Shown here: piece after piece, positions 47,189-55,229 of the stretch
Layout of the letters: every line of letters begins with the position of its first letter
Numbering within the stretch: position 1 is the first letter of the stretch
Origin: Pseudobdellovibrionaceae bacterium
Lineage (GTDB): Bacteria; Bdellovibrionota; Bdellovibrionia; Bdellovibrionales; UBA1609
DNA: 64,000 nt
Assembly: GCA_947444305.1 (NCBI GenBank)
Contig: CANEZP010000004.1
Span: forward strand, 248,001-312,000
Direction: 5' to 3'
Translations under genes and position numbers: made by a program
Notes under the pieces: generated by a model
Database searches by the model: none
What the model was told of the DNA's origin: nothing
The model's input: the letters and a program-made list of their open reading frames with translations, nothing else

Positions 47189-48010
47189 ATGGAAACGATC
47201 CGCCTAACTTGCCCCGATCCCGCGGGTCAGGTCGAAAAATTTGAGATTTTAGCGAACGTATGGCGCCATCCGCGCGCGAAGCGAACCGTGCTGGTTTACC
47301 CGCCGACCGGGGGTCTTACGATTTTGGATCGTCATCTCATAAAAAATTTACGCCGGAATAATTTGAACATCATCGCGCTAAAATGGTTTACCGGAGCTTG
47401 AGAACGCACGCCCGATTGGAACGTGCACGAACGTGGGCTCGTGCGCGGTCGCGAGTGCGGCCTCGTGCTTCTCGAGTGGGCGAGGGCAAATTGGGACAAC
47501 GATTCCTTCGCCGTGATCGGATCGAGCATGGGTGCGTTTTTCGCGGCAAGTCTCGCCGCGAAGCGAGAGGACATTCACAAACTCGTTATTATCGCGGGCG
47601 GTTGCCCGGTCTCCGAAATTGTTTCGCGCACTTGGTTTTTTCCGTTGCTCAAAATTCGTGCGTGGCGCAAACGGCATTACGCGGTGACGAACGAAAAAGA
47701 TTATAGCCGCCGGTTAGAACGGGCCGTAAAAACCGAACCGGGCAAGCGCTTAGCCCCCCGGCCGACCCGTGACGATTTGATGATCGTGGGCAGCCGCGAC
47801 TGGATCATGCCTACCCGAAACCAATTGCGGCTCGCGCAGCAATTGCGTAACCCAAAAATCATTAAGGTTTCGGGCGGTCACTTCAAAACGATCGTTTACG
47901 CGAACACTTTTTTAGTTTCGCGCATCGTAGAGCACGTCGAAGACGGCTCGATGATCAACCTGAGCACGAAAACCGCGAGCGCCGCGCCCGCGACGATATC
48001 CAGCACGTGA
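47189..48010 (+). pseudogene. Alpha/beta hydrolase gene interrupted by one in-frame TGA
   Basis: One continuous frame runs from ATG 47189 to the stop at 48010, broken only by TGA at 47399-47401. Before it: 70 residues including the oxyanion strand VLVYPPTGGL and ending LKWFTGA. After it: ERTPDWNVHERG and the complete catalytic set: nucleophile Ser in GSSMG, Asp in VGSRDWIMP, His in GGHFKTIV. The join WFTGA-(TGA)-ERTPDW would be natural with Trp (TGG) at the TGA. So it is a recent nonsense mutation, or the codon is read through. The 3' end overlaps the PAP2 gene by 115 bases. Confidence 0.8.
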
Positions 48011-48582
48011 TGCTGATGCACCAGTAAAACCGAAACGCAAATGCCGGCCCACCACGGCCATAGCCAAATTCTCGCGCGCCGAACGCGTCGGCTCACGAAG
48101 GCCGTAAACACCGTGGCGAAAAAAACATGCAGCGAGGGCAGCGTGTTGAACGGTTTGTCGATTTCGTGAAGGTACGTAAGCGCCCACGGTAAATTTTGTC
48201 CATCAACCGCGCGCGGCCACATCACGCCGGCCGGAAAGAGATAGAAGATCACCCCCGCGATGACGATGCCGGCGCAAAGACCGCGGCTGAGCCCCTTCAA
48301 CTCATCGAGTCTCCTGACGCAGAAAGGTGGGAGCACGAACAGCAAAACGATGGACAGATAAAGCCAGACCGCGGCGCCGACGATCGGAATTTGCGCTTCC
48401 CACGCGAAGGCGAAATTATAATTTGAAGTCCTCGTTGCCGCTAAAAACGCCGTCAGCGTGTAGACCGCGGCAAACAGGCTGAAGATCTTAAAAAACTGCA
48501 GAAAATAGCCGCGCACGATCGATGAGGGGGGTTGCCTGAAACCGGCGCGATTCAGAAGCCAGGTTGGTATAACGCGAATCAT
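47896..48582 (-). CDS. PAP2-superfamily membrane phosphatase
   Basis: 228 residues with about six hydrophobic segments. PAP2 motifs: NTLPSLHVF and, 40 residues later, VLLVHQHHVLDIVAG, with the catalytic His in the H-H-x-x-D part. The K-x6-RP motif is not clearly seen and W-P-R-A may take its place. Acts on lipid phosphates such as phosphatidic acid or undecaprenyl pyrophosphate, at the membrane. Divergent from the carotenoid operon with 89 bases between, and overlapping the hydrolase gene at its 3' end by 115 bases. Confidence 0.85.
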   Translation of the reverse strand: MIRVIPTWLLNRAGFRQPPSSIVRGYFLQFFKIFSLFAAVYTLTAFLAATRTSNYNFAFAWEAQIPIVGAAVWLYLSIVLLFVLPPFCVRRLDELKGLSRGLCAGIVIAGVIFYLFPAGVMWPRAVDGQNLPWALTYLHEIDKPFNTLPSLHVFFATVFTAFVSRRVRRARIWLWPWWAGICVSVLLVHQHHVLDIVAGAALAVFVLRLIIEPSSTCSTMRETKKVFA

Positions 48583-48671: not shown

Positions 48672-49775
48672 ATGAAGAACGGATCCTGGTTGCTGCTCGG
48701 GGGAGGTCTGGCCAATTGCTTATTGGCGCTTCGCCTTGAACAAAAATCGATCGATTATCTCATCGTTGAACGTGAATCGCGATTGCTAGGCGGCCAAACA
48801 TGGTCGTGTCAGCTTTCGGATATCGCACCCGACGATCGTGACTTCGTGCGCTCCATCACCGATGCCGAATGGCCGGAGTATTCGGTCGCCTTTCCTTCGT
48901 TTGAACGCGTGATTGCCTCACCGTACCTTAGCCTGCGTGCCGAAAGTTTGCGCCGGCGCCTCGAAAGTTTAATTCCGCCCGAAAAAGTCCGCTACGCAAC
49001 GGAAGCCGCCTCGGTATCCCGCACCGGTTTCACTCACGTAGTAAGCGCCGAAGGTTTTGCGACTTCGGGTAAGCACTGCGGTTACCAAAAGTTTGTCGGC
49101 TGGGATTTGCATTTCGCGGAAGGGCACGGAATCACGCGGCCCGTACTGATGGACGCGACCGTCGAGCAAGTGGACGGTTACCGCTTTTTTTATTTACTGC
49201 CCTTCGATGCGCAGACGCTACTGGTTGAAGACACCCGCTATTCAAACGATCCCGCGATTCGCGAGGACGCGTTCAAGGCGAGTCTCGAAGATTATCTGCG
49301 CCGCAAATTCATTGCTAAAACTTGGGTGAAGGTGCGCGAAGAACGCGGTTCGCTGCCTATCCCGTGGGTGATGAATCCGCCGCCGGGTAAGTTCGGCGTT
49401 CAGGGCGGTTTCTTTCATCCCGTCTCGGGCTACTCGCTGCCGTCGGCGGTAAAAACATCGCGGCAGTTAATGGAGGCCGTTACCGGCGGCCAATCCGTGG
49501 CGGCCGCGCTCCTTGAAATCTCGGCGGCCCACGCCAAAGACCGCTCTTACTTTTTGCTACTTAATCGTATGATGTTCTTGGCATCGCCACCCGGGCAGCG
49601 CCGTAAAATCTTTGAGCGCTTTTACGGGCTAAACGAGAATTTGATCAGCCGCTTCTATTCCGGCCGACCGACGGCTTTGGATAAATTGCGCATGCTTTCC
49701 GGTAAACCACCCGTCAAAGTCAGCGCCGCCCTTAAAGTATTGTCCCAACGCGAGGAAAGGCCCGTGTGGAAATAA
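48672..49775 (+). CDS. crtY: Lycopene beta-cyclase
   Basis: 367 residues, CrtY type. FAD-binding GGGLANCLLALRL at the N-terminus, and the family-typical block with the motif QKFVGWDLHF, ending at MDATVEQVDGYRFFYLLPF, plus VEDTRYSND. The enzyme turns the ends of lycopene into beta rings to give beta-carotene. It is the first gene of the run crtY-crtE-crtI-crtB-unknown, overlapping crtE by 10 bases. The ATG has no clear ribosome site. A weak promoter (TTGCTT, 16 bases, TAAATT at 48660-48665) would place the transcription start near the ATG. Confidence 0.92.
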   Translation: MKNGSWLLLGGGLANCLLALRLEQKSIDYLIVERESRLLGGQTWSCQLSDIAPDDRDFVRSITDAEWPEYSVAFPSFERVIASPYLSLRAESLRRRLESLIPPEKVRYATEAASVSRTGFTHVVSAEGFATSGKHCGYQKFVGWDLHFAEGHGITRPVLMDATVEQVDGYRFFYLLPFDAQTLLVEDTRYSNDPAIREDAFKASLEDYLRRKFIAKTWVKVREERGSLPIPWVMNPPPGKFGVQGGFFHPVSGYSLPSAVKTSRQLMEAVTGGQSVAAALLEISAAHAKDRSYFLLLNRMMFLASPPGQRRKIFERFYGLNENLISRFYSGRPTALDKLRMLSGKPPVKVSAALKVLSQREERPVWK

Positions 49776-50707
49776 ACTTGTCTCCGACCTTTTATCCACA
49801 CCTTCGGCCGCATTTGGAACGCGAACTCGTCGACCCCGCAAACGAATTCATGTGCCGATCCAGCAAAGTCGTTCGCAAACGCTTAGTACGCGCGGGTTTC
49901 TTGATGGAAAAGCCGGGCGTGCCTTCGGTTGAGGATGAAAGCCGGTTAGACGCACTCGGCGACGCGCTCGAGATTATTCACGCCGCCTCTTTAATCATCG
50001 ATGATATCCAAGACGGCAGCCACACGCGCCGGGGTAAGGAAAGTGTCCACGTATTGATCGGCACATCGAAGGCGATCAACGTCGGAAATTGGCTCTATTT
50101 TCAAGGCCTCGAACGGGTCGAAGATTTAGGCCTCGATGACCAAACGACATTGTGCCTTTTGCGGCTTTTCCGGCGCGCGCTCGCGGAAGGTCACGCCGGC
50201 CAAGCACTTGACCTCGGCATTCCTATCTCCGAAGCGGAGCGCAAGATCGTGCCCGACATCTGCGCCGCAAGTACGCGTCTAAAGAGCGGTAGTTTGGCGG
50301 GGCTCGCGTTCGCGGGCGGCGCCATTCTCGCCGGCGCAAAGGAATACAACACCGCTTTCAAAACCGGTGAAAGCGTCGGGATTTTGTTGCAGTCTTTGGA
50401 CGACCTTAAAAATCTGAAGTTCGACAATGACGTGCCCGAAAAACAGTTCGAGGATCTCCGCAATCAACGGCCCGGTTTGATCTGGGCCGCCGCCGCTTCG
50501 CACGAGCGAAGGGAGTGCTGGGACAGCTTACTCGCCGCTATACCTGATCATCAAAAAATCAATGCCTGGCTCAAGGAATTCAAAATCATTGAGCGGGAAC
50601 GTGAACGCATTGACCTGCGCCTACGTTTTTTGAACGGACGCCTTAAAGGTCAAAAAGAGATCGAAGAAATATTTAACTTACTCGTGGATGCATATGAAAA
50701 ATTATAA
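49766..50707 (+). CDS. crtE: Geranylgeranyl diphosphate synthase
   Basis: 313 residues. First Asp motif DDIQD in ASLIIDDIQDGSHTRRG; second region QSLDDLKNLKFD, where the usual DDxxD is DDLKN (final Asp replaced). It condenses isopentenyl diphosphate units to C20 GGPP, the precursor of phytoene. GTG start at 49766 with GAGGAAAGG about five bases upstream, inside crtY. It overlaps crtI by 20 bases. The altered second Asp motif may change the product length or rate. Confidence 0.9.
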   Translation: MEINLSPTFYPHLRPHLERELVDPANEFMCRSSKVVRKRLVRAGFLMEKPGVPSVEDESRLDALGDALEIIHAASLIIDDIQDGSHTRRGKESVHVLIGTSKAINVGNWLYFQGLERVEDLGLDDQTTLCLLRLFRRALAEGHAGQALDLGIPISEAERKIVPDICAASTRLKSGSLAGLAFAGGAILAGAKEYNTAFKTGESVGILLQSLDDLKNLKFDNDVPEKQFEDLRNQRPGLIWAAAASHERRECWDSLLAAIPDHQKINAWLKEFKIIERERERIDLRLRFLNGRLKGQKEIEEIFNLLVDAYEKL

Positions 50708-52175
50708 AGCGATCGTGATCGGCGGCGGCTTCGGCGGGCTTTCGCTCGCAATCCGTCTTCAAAAAATGGGCTACCAAACTACTCTCCTCGAGATGCGTGA
50801 TCAGCTTGGTGGGCGCGCTTACGTATTTCGCGATAAGGGATTCACCTTCGACGCCGGCCCGACCGTCATCACGGCGCCCGAGTGTCTCGAAGAATTATTC
50901 ACGCTCGCCGGCCGTAAGATGAGCGACTATGTCGAGCTCATGCCGGTTACGCCGTTTTACCGACTTTCGTGGGACGACGGCTTTGAGTTCGATTATTCAA
51001 ACGACGAGAAATCTTTAAAGGAACAAATCTTAGCGAAAAGCCCCGCCGATTGGGAAGGTTACCAAAGTTTTCTGAAGTATTCGAAACAGGTTTTTAAAGC
51101 CGGCTACAGTGAACTTGCGCACAAACCATTCTTAAGCTTTTGGAGCATGGCCCGTTGCGCACCCCAATTGATGAAGCTGCAGGCGCATCGCTCGGTTTAC
51201 TCGATGGTCTCGAGCTACATCAAAGACGAAAAGCTGCGCGAGGCTTTTAGCTTCCATTCGTTATTGGTGGGCGGCAATCCTTTCGCAACATCCAGCATCT
51301 ACACGCTCATTCATTATCTTGAGCGCAACTGGGGCGTCTTCTTCCCCCGCGGCGGGACCGGAGCGCTGATCGAAGCTTTAGGCAAACTGTTTACCGATTT
51401 AGGCGGAACGATCCGGCTCAATGCCGAAGTCGACGAAATTATCTCGGAAGGAAAACAGATCACGGGCGTGCGATTGAAGTCGCAAGAATTTATCGAGGCG
51501 CCGCTGGTAGCTTGCAATTCGGACGTGGCGCACACCTACCGCGACTTGCTAAGGAATACGAAAGCCGTAGAAAAACCACGGCGCAAAGCCTTGAACAGCA
51601 AATACAGCATGTCGCTATTCTTGATTTACTTCGGCACCAAAAAGAAATACCCGAACCAAGCGCACCACCAGGTCATCTTCGGTCCACGTTACGAAGACTT
51701 GCTCAAAGATATCTTCGACCGCAAAGTGTTGGCCGACGATTTTTCGTTGTACCTGCACACCCCGACCGTCAGCGATCCCAACCTTGCGCCCCCCGGATGC
51801 GAAGGTTTTTACGTCCTTTCGCCCGTACCGCATTTAGAAAAAGGGGACATCGATTGGAAAACGGCCGGTCCCCTTTACGCCCAAAGAATCTTAGATTACC
51901 TGGACGAAAAGTTCCTACCCGGCCTGAAGGAAAATTTAGTCACGCAACGAATCTTTACGCCCGAAGACTTTAAGTCGCAGTTGAACGCCCACTTCGGTTC
52001 CGCTTTTTCGATTGAACCTTTGCTCACGCAAAGCGCTTACTTCCGTACGCACAACCGAGCTCCCGGTATAAACGGCCTTTATTTTGTCGGCGCGGGAACT
52101 CACCCGGGCGCGGGCGTACCCGGCGTCGTCAATTCCGCAAAGGCTACGGCGGAAGTGATCGCGGGGGATATGTGA
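50688..52175 (+). CDS. crtI: Phytoene desaturase
   Basis: 495 residues. N-terminal FAD motif IGGGFGGLSLAIRL and the CrtI-type segment LGGRAYVFRDKGFTFDAGPTV; C-terminal FAD segment FVGAGTHPGAGVPGV. Bacterial CrtI desaturates phytoene, typically to lycopene, the substrate for CrtY. The start is ATG 50688 or 50694, both inside the crtE 3' end. The 3' end overlaps crtB by 4 bases. Number of desaturation steps cannot be read from sequence. Confidence 0.95.
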   Translation: MHMKNYKAIVIGGGFGGLSLAIRLQKMGYQTTLLEMRDQLGGRAYVFRDKGFTFDAGPTVITAPECLEELFTLAGRKMSDYVELMPVTPFYRLSWDDGFEFDYSNDEKSLKEQILAKSPADWEGYQSFLKYSKQVFKAGYSELAHKPFLSFWSMARCAPQLMKLQAHRSVYSMVSSYIKDEKLREAFSFHSLLVGGNPFATSSIYTLIHYLERNWGVFFPRGGTGALIEALGKLFTDLGGTIRLNAEVDEIISEGKQITGVRLKSQEFIEAPLVACNSDVAHTYRDLLRNTKAVEKPRRKALNSKYSMSLFLIYFGTKKKYPNQAHHQVIFGPRYEDLLKDIFDRKVLADDFSLYLHTPTVSDPNLAPPGCEGFYVLSPVPHLEKGDIDWKTAGPLYAQRILDYLDEKFLPGLKENLVTQRIFTPEDFKSQLNAHFGSAFSIEPLLTQSAYFRTHNRAPGINGLYFVGAGTHPGAGVPGVVNSAKATAEVIAGDM

Positions 52176-53071
52176 ACGACGAAGCGCTCATACGTCTCTG
52201 CCGCGATTCGATCGCGCGCGGCTCAAAGACCTTCACCTTCGCTTCACGTTTTTTCGGCGCCGAGAAAGCGCGCGATGCCGCCCTGCTTTATCACTGGTGC
52301 AGAAACTGCGACGACACCGTAGACGATTCGACCGGCGAAAGCCGAACGCTCGGCCTTGCACGCATCAAAGAAGAAGTGGACCGTGCGATCGGCGGCCAGG
52401 CCGGTGAATCGGTTCCCGCGCGTGCGCTCGCGTATTTGGTGGCCAAGTATGACATCCCGGCCCACTACCCACGCGAGCTTATCGAAGGCATGACGATGGA
52501 CGCTCAATTCGAAACGCCGAAAAGCATCGGCGAGCTTGAATTGTACTGCTACCGCGTAGCGGGCGTCGTGGGATTGATGATGGCGCACATCCTCGGCGTG
52601 AGTTCTGAATTTGCGTTGCGCAGCGCCTGTGACCTCGGGATCGCGATGCAACTAACGAACATTTCGCGCGACGTGCTCGCCGACCACGCGCTTGGGCGCT
52701 GCTACATTCCCGAATCGGTTTTGGCGCGGCACGGGCTGACCGCGGCAAATTACGCCGAACCCGCGCGGCGCGATAAATTAAACATGGCGATTAAAGAGCT
52801 GCTCGTGCTGGCCGACGGTTACTACGCTTCCGGCGAGTACGGCGCTCGGTTTTTGTCCAAGCGTTCGTCTTTCGTAATCTTGATCGCGCGCTTTGCGTAC
52901 GCGCGCATCGGCGCGAAGGTGCGCGCACGGGGTTGCGTCGAGCGTCAGGTGACTTCGCGTTCCGAAAAAATATTATGTTTATTTAAAGCGGCCCTGACCT
53001 GGTGCCGTCAATATTTCACGAGACCACGATGGCGTCCGGCCACGATTCAGCAAGTTTGGAGACTTCCTTGA
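52172..53071 (+). CDS. crtB: Phytoene synthase
   Basis: 299 residues. The two Asp-rich motifs are DDTVDD and NISRDVLAD, plus the family segment YCYRVAGVVGLMM. It joins two GGPP molecules to phytoene. GTG start at 52172 overlaps crtI's stop (GTGA). The last about 40 residues are a basic tail with Trp/Arg, longer than usual. Its stop overlaps the next gene's TTG start. Confidence 0.94.
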   Translation: MNDEALIRLCRDSIARGSKTFTFASRFFGAEKARDAALLYHWCRNCDDTVDDSTGESRTLGLARIKEEVDRAIGGQAGESVPARALAYLVAKYDIPAHYPRELIEGMTMDAQFETPKSIGELELYCYRVAGVVGLMMAHILGVSSEFALRSACDLGIAMQLTNISRDVLADHALGRCYIPESVLARHGLTAANYAEPARRDKLNMAIKELLVLADGYYASGEYGARFLSKRSSFVILIARFAYARIGAKVRARGCVERQVTSRSEKILCLFKAALTWCRQYFTRPRWRPATIQQVWRLP

Positions 53072-53640
53072 ACAGTTTTTACCGCGACACGGTCGAGTAT
53101 GCGTCCGAGATCAAAAACTTCGACCGTCACGATTGGATCGCCTACGTGCTTTGGGTCGGCCTCATGGCGGGTTTGTTCGTTGCAACCTTCGGCTTCGTGA
53201 TGATCGGTCACGCCAACGGGGTGGTCTTTCCGGCCTACGTTTGGAACGTGCCCATCGGCTGCTTCATCTTTATAGGGGCGATCGCCTTCGACACCATCGG
53301 GCACCGCACGCGTTACGTGGAAGAGATAAAAAAAGGCGAAGCGCTCGTCCACCACATTACGATTTTTGCCGGCGTCACGAGTTGCCTGGCGTTGTGCCTT
53401 GCCTATTCACATCCCGTGTTCTGGAAATTCCCCGCACTTTCGTTGATCGTGCTGAGCTTATTCTACAGCGTGATCGACGAAGGTTTGCACTGGCACCGGT
53501 ACCTTAACGGCCACTCGGATCGCGTTGAAATGTGGAGCCATTTCTTTATTTTTCTTGGTCACACGATCATGATTTCCGCGTGGTACTACTGGTTTATCGA
53601 CGGCTACCCGGGCGTGAAGGAAACTCTAAATTTTTTGTGA
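53068..53640 (+). CDS. Unrecognised His-rich membrane protein at the end of the carotenoid operon
   Basis: 190 residues with the TTG start at 53068 (overlapping crtB's TGA, GGAG six bases upstream); earlier starts at 53002 and 53029 are possible. About five hydrophobic segments. Metal-like residues: D75-x3-H79, E85/E86/E91, H95-H96, D137-E138-x2-H141-x-H143, E154-x3-H158 and H165. These are spaced around the hydrophobic parts as in membrane di-iron enzymes, but not in the classical HxxxH, HxxHH pattern of CrtZ or CrtW. Operon position suggests a carotenoid hydroxylase, ketolase or other ring-modifying enzyme; I cannot name the family. Confidence 0.82.
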   Translation: MNSFYRDTVEYASEIKNFDRHDWIAYVLWVGLMAGLFVATFGFVMIGHANGVVFPAYVWNVPIGCFIFIGAIAFDTIGHRTRYVEEIKKGEALVHHITIFAGVTSCLALCLAYSHPVFWKFPALSLIVLSLFYSVIDEGLHWHRYLNGHSDRVEMWSHFFIFLGHTIMISAWYYWFIDGYPGVKETLNFL

Positions 53641-54360
53641 GTCGCGATGCAGTTTGCGCGAAAGAAGGGTCGCGGCCAACGCGCAAGCGCCGAAGGCCGC
53701 GAGGTAGCCCACGAATTTCCATTCGACTTCTTGACCCAGCGCAAGCTTCCATAAAATTTCGCCGTAGTGGCGAGTCGGTAAATACTGCGAGACCCGCTCG
53801 ACTTTGGCCGGCAGGGCTCCGGGCGGCATCCATAAGCCCCCGGCGAACGACGCCAAGATATAAATCAGGTTAAAGACCGGCAGCGCGGCCCACGCGCTCA
53901 CCCAATTGGCAATGGCGGCGGCACTGAGCGCGAACGGCACGGCGCCGATCAGGGCCACGACGGTCATCCCACACCAGCGCCCGAAACTCATTTCCGCACC
54001 GGCCGAATATTCGACCGTGGCGTAGACCACGCCCGAGGCGGCGATCCCGCACACGAGCGTGTTGAAAACTTGCGAGAAAAATAAGGTTGAGCCCCTTACC
54101 GGCAATGTTCGCATGAGCGAGTACCATCCGCTTTTCAATTCCTGAGCCTGGTGCACCCCGAACTGAAACAGGCATACGCCTAAAATCGCGAAGGCCGTGA
54201 ACGACGCCATCAGGAACTTCGCTTTATCGGGCGTATCGGCGTTAGGTAGGGCGAATAGCAAAAAGAAGAGCGCGGGAAATATCATCGTGCTCGCAAGATA
54301 ACCAGGTTCGCGCGCCAGTTGCCGGATCCTCAGAAAAACGTGCGCGCGCAAAATACTCAA
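53626..54360 (-). CDS. ABC-2 type transporter permease
   Basis: About 244 residues from the TTG at 54360, which overlaps the ATPase stop (TTGA). Hydrophobic segments near 20-45, 60-80, 105-130, 140-165 and 170-190 and 220-240, and the FLxxRxxxREPxY-type N-terminus of ABC-2 permeases. It forms an exporter with the ATPase next to it. The substrate is unknown; the neighbouring carotenoid genes are on the other strand, and its 3' end overlaps the terminal crt-operon gene by 15 bases. Confidence 0.87.
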   Translation of the reverse strand: MSILRAHVFLRIRQLAREPGYLASTMIFPALFFLLFALPNADTPDKAKFLMASFTAFAILGVCLFQFGVHQAQELKSGWYSLMRTLPVRGSTLFFSQVFNTLVCGIAASGVVYATVEYSAGAEMSFGRWCGMTVVALIGAVPFALSAAAIANWVSAWAALPVFNLIYILASFAGGLWMPPGALPAKVERVSQYLPTRHYGEILWKLALGQEVEWKFVGYLAAFGACALAATLLSRKLHRDSQKI

Positions 54361-55229
54361 CCGGGCCTGCCGATCAAGCGCAAAAAAACATCTTCGAGGG
54401 CGAGCGGCGCGACGTCGATGTCGGTGGCCTTGCCCCAATTCAGAAGTTGGTTAAGCGCGGCGTCCGGCTCGCGCGAATCGACTAACCAACGGCCGTGCTC
54501 ACCGCCGCTGACGGCGCCGAGCGTGGGCGGCGGAACGACTTCGGAGGTAAATAGAATACGTTTGTAGCCGTAACGTCTTTTTATTTCGGCCGGGCTGCCT
54601 TGCTGGGCCACGCGTCCTGCCGCTAACACGACGATATTGCTGGCCAGCGCTTCGGCCTCGGCCAGGTAATGCGTGGTCATCAGGATACTGCCGCCTTTTG
54701 CGCGGTAGGCGCCGAGCAAGTGCCACACCCTCTGCCGCATTTCGACGTCGAGCCCGGTCGTCGGTTCGTCAAGAATAACAAGCGGAAGATCGAGCACGAA
54801 GGCGCAGGCCACGGACACGAGCCGCCGCTGTCCACCGCTTAAATGCCGTACGGGCAAGTTTAAAAAGCGATCCATCTCAAGGTCTAAACTGAGGGCGCGG
54901 ATGTCGCGGGGCTTGACCGAATGCGCGGCGCTAAAGTGCAACAAATCAATGCCGCGGACGTGGGCCGGAAAAGCGGGCTCTTGCGGTACGTAGCCCATGG
55001 ACCGACGGGCTTCCATGCTTCCGGCTAAGTGCCCGAAGATTTTTATTGTACCACTATCGGGACGGAGCAAACCGTTTGCGAGTGAGATCGAAGTGGATTT
55101 GCCCGCGCCGTTCGGTCCGAGCACGACCGTAAACTCACCCTTACTTACAATGAAATCGAGGTTCGCGAGCACTTTCTTAGCGTCGAAAGACTTACTTACG
55201 TCTGAAAAAGCTAAGGCTGCGGGGTTCAC
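54357..55229 (-). CDS. ABC transporter ATPase
   Basis: 290 residues. Walker A GPNGAGKST, Q-loop YVPQEP, signature LSGGQ, Walker B LVILDEP, and switch His in TTHYLAE. The N-terminal half is the typical ABC-2 exporter ATPase, and the C-terminal about 80 residues are a short extension. It powers the permease encoded directly downstream. The start is GTG at 55229. Confidence 0.93.
   Translation of the reverse strand: MNPAALAFSDVSKSFDAKKVLANLDFIVSKGEFTVVLGPNGAGKSTSISLANGLLRPDSGTIKIFGHLAGSMEARRSMGYVPQEPAFPAHVRGIDLLHFSAAHSVKPRDIRALSLDLEMDRFLNLPVRHLSGGQRRLVSVACAFVLDLPLVILDEPTTGLDVEMRQRVWHLLGAYRAKGGSILMTTHYLAEAEALASNIVVLAAGRVAQQGSPAEIKRRYGYKRILFTSEVVPPPTLGAVSGGEHGRWLVDSREPDAALNQLLNWGKATDIDVAPLALEDVFLRLIGRPG

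Follow-up and report, generated by a model that had tools for sequence, protein, structure and literature searches.

A putative beta-ring carotenoid hydroxylase unrelated to CrtZ at the end of a crt operon in Bdellovibrionota

To our knowledge, hydroxylation of carotene rings is carried out by just a few unrelated enzyme types. Di-iron membrane oxygenases of carotenoids and lipids with His-rich cytoplasmic sites constitute the families FA_hydroxylase (PF04116) and FA_desaturase (PF00487), the latter including CrtW and CrtR. TspO genes also occur in some carotenoid (crt) gene clusters. The window analysed here, a stretch of 64,000 nucleotides on contig C4 of the 4.17-Mb genome of a Pseudobdellovibrionaceae bacterium whose relatives among the compared genomes are Bdellovibrionota, carries on its + strand five complete and overlapping genes in the order crtY-crtE-crtI-crtB-ORF5 (positions 48672-53640). 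The last open reading frame, ORF5 (53068..53640, + strand, TTG start), encodes a five-helix membrane protein of 190 amino acids (aa), designated here as a putative beta-ring carotenoid hydroxylase. Comparison of sequences across genomes makes it probable (roughly 0.72) that ORF5 is a non-homologous, likely metal-dependent beta-ring hydroxylase standing in for CrtZ. ORF5 is proposed to work like CrtZ because of its distribution and neighbourhood, despite the absence of any sequence relation; from these we infer both its catalytic role and ring hydroxylation as its reaction.

The exchange between ORF5 and CrtZ is the central observation. During the reading of CrtY clusters lacking ORF5, a canonical CrtZ gene was recognized convergent against the crtB end in genome G318 (genomes and loci are designated by G and L numbers). 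It matches, with E 7e-22, a Pantoea gene located beside crtB and annotated as "sterol desaturase family", which we take to be the classical crtZ. CrtZ was sought in 72 genomes, with matches accepted at E below 1e-10, and was found in 11 of them. Ten of these carry CrtY and no ORF5; the remaining one, G353, does have ORF5. In this search CrtZ was not found in any of the 46 genomes whose ORF5 is intact, and the contrast between 1/47 ORF5 genomes and 10/20 searched CrtY-positive genomes without ORF5 is significant (Fisher p 7e-6; 3e-4 by genus). In G353, the ORF5 frame (L222, near 1218-1850) is broken near its start, where a stop and a change of frame occur; this genome is a bin, and the break is possibly an assembly error. 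In addition, G353 has a CrtW-CrtZ pair, which lies on a contig other than that of the disrupted ORF5.

Nine ORF5-less clusters, a count that leaves out the retinal clusters of G307 and G316, are readable on the downstream side of crtB, and all of them belong to CrtZ-positive genomes (G008, G019, G071, G079, G083, G065, G318, G186, and G093). The arrangement in G093 is crtE-crtI-crtB-CrtZ on one strand, with CrtZ in the exact place of ORF5. The family to which the window belongs is itself split: G000 and G001 have ORF5, and G008 and G019 have CrtZ. In a CrtI tree, whose CrtZ rows were picked after the CrtZ scan, at least four changes between the ORF5 and CrtZ labels fall on supported branches, and the best tree has seven. 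Among the ORF5-less CrtY genomes, G335, G278, and G195 have contigs that end inside crtB or crtE, as does G326, in which CrtY was not found. G073, G075, and G087 contain just a lone divergent CrtY-like gene, and five genomes with weaker CrtY matches (G179, G184, G185, G193, and G200) were left out of the cluster reading. The retinal clusters of G307 and G316, where crtEIB lies beside a long CrtY frame and a rhodopsin gene, correspond to a retinal route; they contain neither ORF5 nor CrtZ at the locus, and CrtZ was not sought in the whole genomes. A fusion of CrtY with the beta-carotene 15,15'-dioxygenase Blh (PF05834 + PF15461) was confirmed with Pfam in G316 (L246:10025-11995), and a frame as long as this fusion lies beside the rhodopsin gene in G307 (L247:6233-8200).

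The occurrence of ORF5 is tightly linked to lycopene cyclase. CrtY, scored by TIGR01789 across 369 genomes of the phylum, is present in 68 of them, including 45 of the 47 ORF5 genomes (Fisher p ~4e-38). Of the remaining two ORF5 genomes, one is a bin of 64% completeness whose locus is at a contig edge, and the other is a bin with 9% contamination and a 3.4-kb contig. CrtI was scanned in 173 genomes. ORF5 is present in 25/31 genomes with both CrtI and CrtY, versus 1/14 with CrtI and no CrtY (Fisher p 4e-6), and this lone genome is represented by the 3.4-kb contig of the contaminated bin. This contrast among CrtI genomes indicates that ORF5 tracks cyclic carotenoids, not carotenoids in general.

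ORF5 is a single-copy gene in its own genome. Its relatives were found in 16 of the 99 genomes of the first comparison set, in 47 of the 369 phylum genomes, and at 44 loci in GTDB contigs, among them loci of Myxococcota and of two Asgard genomes. In nearly all of ~60 loci from several families, Myxococcota included, ORF5 lies immediately 3' of crtB and is read in the same direction. As exceptions, ORF5 directly follows crtY in L187 and comes after an ABC pair in L048, and in L063 it is on a 9-kb contig without any crt gene. The identity is ~55-70% within the order, which makes ORF5 more conserved than crtB, crtE, or crtY. The starts of the homologues fall within a few codons of that of ORF5, and a GGAG-type signal lies 5' of most of them. 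The Asgard homologues (L072:932-1618 and L117:7747-8385) show 42-44% identity. On a contig labelled as Asgard (Kariarchaeota), the homologue adjoins crtI; in the second Asgard genome, G412, it lies beside an alpha/beta hydrolase gene on a 271-kb contig. CrtZ was found in neither Asgard genome in the CrtZ search. A Myxococcota match in G634 (E 0.006) was set aside because the fetched stretch contains no crt gene and just a weak CrtW-like match. Sequence searches with ORF5 against Pfam, NCBIfam, and PDB gave no match; a search of viral contigs returned nine pattern matches, none of them a relative, and a search of plasmids returned no relative. No description of such a family or of a hydroxylase of this type was found in open-licence papers on Bdellovibrio carotenoids, bd1725, new hydroxylases, or Asgard carotenoid hydroxylases.

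A GT2 glycosyltransferase gene directly follows ORF5 in ~15 distinct loci. The encoded proteins are nearest, below the cut-off, to CruG (carotenoid 2'-O-glycosyltransferase) and HpnB. Members of this GT2 family also adjoin CrtZ in G079 (L228) and a CrtW-CrtZ pair in G065 (L230), and one is located ~2 kb from the CrtW-CrtZ pair in G353. Since a sugar transferase needs a hydroxyl, a hydroxylase is expected beside GT2. An earlier note on this DNA, written from the sequence alone, had proposed ORF5 as a new type of carotenoid-modifying enzyme on the basis of its position; the exchange with CrtZ, the linkage to CrtY, and the GT2 partner all support that proposal, with catalysis itself being presumed.

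The ketolase CrtW was found in four CrtZ genomes (including G019, G065, and G186) and in two genomes with intact ORF5 and no CrtZ (G257 and G322). Because CrtW occurs beside CrtZ and intact ORF5 alike, ORF5 does not substitute for the ketolase. In G257 (L235:1441-3653) and G322 (L236:1480-3578), CrtW adjoins a CruF-like Caroten_synth gene (PF04240) and an acyltransferase gene, and a rhodopsin gene lies ~4-5 kb away on the same contig. A gene for a 260-aa FA_hydroxylase (PF04116, weakly OlsE-like) is also present in many crt clusters, whether these have ORF5 or CrtZ; the loci are L020, L021, L023, L024, L026, L038, L042, L051, L055, L056, L184, L185, L192, and L204. In G008 and G019 this FA_hydroxylase replaces ORF5 behind crtB; it was dropped as the functional alternative both because these two genomes have CrtZ and because it coexists with ORF5 in many clusters. 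It is a second candidate tailoring enzyme, probably with a separate role.

Residue conservation was counted over an alignment of 40 ORF5 members. D22, D75, H79, E91, D137, E138, H141, R144, E154, H158, and H165 show no substitution, and 39/40 members have H95. The earlier note had listed H95-H96, H141-x-H143, E154/H158, and D137-E138, and had made conservation of the His and Asp residues among homologues decisive. All of the named residues are at the positions given for them, and most of the His, Asp, and Glu residues are conserved, whereas H96 (29/40) and H143 (12/40) are not and were dropped as ligands; the equally invariant D75, H79, E91, and H165 had been missed. With coordinates computed from the start at 53068, the codons of the putative metal ligands on the + strand are those of D75-x3-H79 where transmembrane helix (TM) 2 ends on the cytoplasmic side (53290..53304), E91-x3-H95 at the start of TM3 (53338..53352), D137-E138-x2-H141 at the end of TM4 (53476..53490), and E154-x3-H158 together with H165 in TM5 (53527..53562).

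The AlphaFold2 model of ORF5 has a mean predicted local distance difference test score (pLDDT) of 94.8 and a predicted template modelling score (pTM) of 0.88. It includes an amphipathic N-terminal helix and five long helices (residues 20-49, 56-81, 84-111, 116-146, and 152-177), in agreement with the five membrane segments recognized earlier from the sequence. Judged from the order of the helices, the conserved residues lie where TM2 and TM4 end and where TM3 and TM5 begin, all on the same membrane face. The loops on this face contain ~3 Lys/Arg each, versus 0.25-0.65 on the other face, and because of this enrichment the face is assigned to the cytoplasm under the positive-inside rule. A conserved acid precedes four of the five conserved His residues by one helical turn (permutation p 4e-4), and the resulting pairs D75/H79, E91/H95, E138/H141, and E154/H158 are at the same end of four helices. 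This pattern resembles that of a four-helix acid/His metal site, with iron as the presumed metal. Foldseek searches with the model found nothing significant in PDB or BFVD, with E of 0.8 or higher throughout. The best rows of VIA-align were bacterial TSPO, with Z 9.4 and a root-mean-square deviation of 3.8 over 140 residues; Z below about 13 is uninformative for helical bundles, and the rows for TSPO, PhoU-like proteins, TACAN, and ALMT all fall within this noise.

These features are consistent with the following pathway. CrtE, CrtB, CrtI, and CrtY would make beta-carotene, and ORF5 would hydroxylate the rings at the 3 and 3' positions, yielding a zeaxanthin-type xanthophyll. Beta-carotene would enter ORF5 from the membrane. 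The acid/His pairs of TM2-TM5 may hold a metal centre at the cytoplasmic face, probably di-iron, which, once reduced by ferredoxin or flavodoxin, would activate O2, so that ring carbon 3, the presumed position, would be hydroxylated at each end. The product of the adjacent CruG-like gene would then add a sugar to this hydroxyl in some lineages. In this reading the reaction is a known one and the protein family is new, and the fitting annotation for ORF5 is putative carotenoid hydroxylase of a new family, not CrtZ. The chances are evenly balanced for the wider proposal that it constitutes a new class of integral-membrane acid/His metal oxygenases with a fold unlike that of the FA-desaturase/hydroxylase superfamily, independent of CrtZ, CrtR, and P450s, and moved among Bdellovibrionota, Myxococcota, and Asgard archaea.

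Several points weigh against ORF5 as a hydroxylase equivalent to CrtZ. The independent contrasts in the CrtI tree number just three supported and six in all; all are in the expected direction, and the sign test is not significant. Some of the genomes are incomplete bins. The predicted metal site is built on conservation and helix order, H95 is replaced by Q in one member, and the homologue in the Asgard genome G412 is away from crt genes. The 260-aa FA_hydroxylase of many Bdellovibrio clusters, coexisting with ORF5 and with CrtZ, might do the hydroxylation. If ancestry and patchy bins produced the CrtZ exchange as a by-product, ORF5 would have some other carotenoid-related role, and this FA_hydroxylase, or nothing, would hydroxylate the rings. 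The small number of supported pairs and the frequent FA_hydroxylase fit such a scenario, which is nevertheless highly improbable, since at least four label changes are needed in the CrtI tree, the FA_hydroxylase accompanies CrtZ in G008 and G019 as well, and ORF5 is found with no FA_hydroxylase nearby in the window cluster and in L019, L022, L027-L031, L034-L037, and L043-L050.

CrtZ and ORF5 could also exclude each other if they gave different end products. ORF5 would then be a tailoring enzyme for another beta-ring reaction, such as 2- or 4-hydroxylation, ketolation, or ring desaturation. Any ring oxidation fits the operon position, the dependence on CrtY, and the invariant acid/His residues; a ketolase, however, would be redundant in G257 and G322, CrtZ can occupy the exact place of ORF5 after crtB, and the shared GT2 partner suggests the same hydroxyl product, which together leave another reaction rather unlikely. 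A non-enzymatic membrane protein for carotenoid binding, transport, or regulation, similar to TspO/CrtK of purple-bacterial crt clusters, is less probable still. Bacterial TSPO, a five-helix protein, gives the best structural alignments, and an ABC-2 transporter pair often neighbours ORF5. Against this, the alignment scores are uninformative for helical bundles, the conservation of ten acid/His positions on a single face is what a metal enzyme typically shows, a carrier is not expected to alternate with CrtZ, and no TspO profile is among the families listed for ORF5 members. The profile search for a known non-enzymatic membrane family, which had been suggested as a way to disprove an enzymatic role, gave no match.

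The other four genes of the operon are all on the + strand. crtY (48672..49775) encodes a lycopene beta-cyclase of 367 aa that scores 274.5 bits with TIGR01789 (cut-off 215.2) and also matches PF05834. The crtE-like gene (49766..50707) encodes a polyprenyl diphosphate synthase of 313 aa, presumed to be a geranylgeranyl diphosphate synthase; it is divergent, matching the polyprenyl synthase family PF00348 with 125.9 bits and scoring under the NCBIfam CrtE equivalog cut-offs. crtI (50688..52175) encodes a phytoene desaturase of 495 aa (TIGR02734, 664 bits, over the cut-off), and crtB (52172..53071) a phytoene synthase of 299 aa (SQS_PSY, PF00494, 211.9 bits; Phyto_syn_CrtB, NF042419, 219.7 bits). 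Family scans and coordinates thus agree with the earlier description of four complete and overlapping genes. The TTG start of ORF5 at 53068 overlaps the crtB stop, and the GGAG ribosome-binding site that had been noted before it was confirmed at 53058..53061 (+ strand), 6 nucleotides 5' of the TTG. In a freshwater lineage, crtI and crtB are fused in one frame of ~800 aa without a stop (L043:3593-5983, L045:3578-5983, and L046:3593-5983), and several of the genomes G280-G287 contain fused crtI-crtB frames of 813-834 aa.

Directly 5' of crtY in the window (47423-48582), an alpha/beta hydrolase frame on the + strand overlaps a gene for a PAP2-family membrane protein on the - strand. On the other side, an ABC-2 permease/ATPase pair on the - strand (53626-55229) adjoins the end of ORF5. 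Synteny between such a pair and the crt cluster extends across several families (L018-L021, L023, L024, L026, L192, and L204), and the pair perhaps functions in the export or placement of the carotenoid or its glycoside.

The ORF5 family probably includes a Bdellovibrio gene that has been linked to pigmentation. The white B. bacteriovorus strain Tiberius lacks bd1723-bd1725 and bd1730, which were called carotenoid genes, while HD100 is yellow (PMC3539863). G072 (L024) contains crtI, crtB, ORF5, and, farther on, crtY, an order that matches bd1723-bd1725 and bd1730. G072 is presumably HD100, and its ORF5 is probably bd1725, an equation made in the present analysis.

If ORF5 is a ring hydroxylase, it would account for the ability of many predatory and marine Bdellovibrionota to produce xanthophylls in the absence of CrtZ, and genomes of this group annotated as ending at beta-carotene probably go further. 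It would also offer a new 190-aa enzyme for engineered zeaxanthin or astaxanthin routes, and would add a family of membrane metal oxygenases that is without a solved structure or a curated profile.

Among the known systems, TspO/CrtK (TSPO) shares with ORF5 the architecture of a five-helix membrane protein; the TspO_MBR profile does not match ORF5 of the window and is not among the families listed for the 40 members. Caroten_synth (PF04240) of the CruF type is not among the ORF5 matches, while a CruF-like protein of the phylum was matched at E 2e-44. The earlier statement that ORF5 is unlike CrtZ or CrtW was borne out by the profiles. ORF5 has no NCBIfam match to CrtW (NF045690), whereas a CrtW of the phylum matches this profile at E 2e-70. 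ORF5 also lacks the three His boxes of the FA_hydroxylase and FA_desaturase families and shows no significant fold match. PF04116 and PF00487 do not match ORF5 of the window; 3/40 members match FA_desaturase at E up to 1, and the best of the 40 has E 0.002, under the cut-off. The soluble carboxylate-bridged di-iron proteins, such as ferritin-like proteins and alternative oxidase, have an acid and a His one turn apart on a four-helix bundle, and the conserved acid/His pairs of ORF5 resemble this arrangement. In contrast to them, ORF5 is a five-helix integral membrane protein without a sequence or fold match, and the likeness is one of pattern only.

CrtZ is probably the closest counterpart in function. 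An hhalign comparison of the ORF5 profile with five CrtZ proteins gave a probability of 0.4% and E 0.15. CrtZ has the His boxes HxxxxH and HxxHH, while the ORF5 alignment contains neither and has acid-His pairs on four helices instead. CrtZ of the Pantoea type and ORF5 have in common the location at the end of a crt operon beside crtB, the dependence on CrtY, and the GT2 partner. Like CrtZ, ORF5 is a small integral membrane protein with conserved His residues, and the reaction is probably the same.

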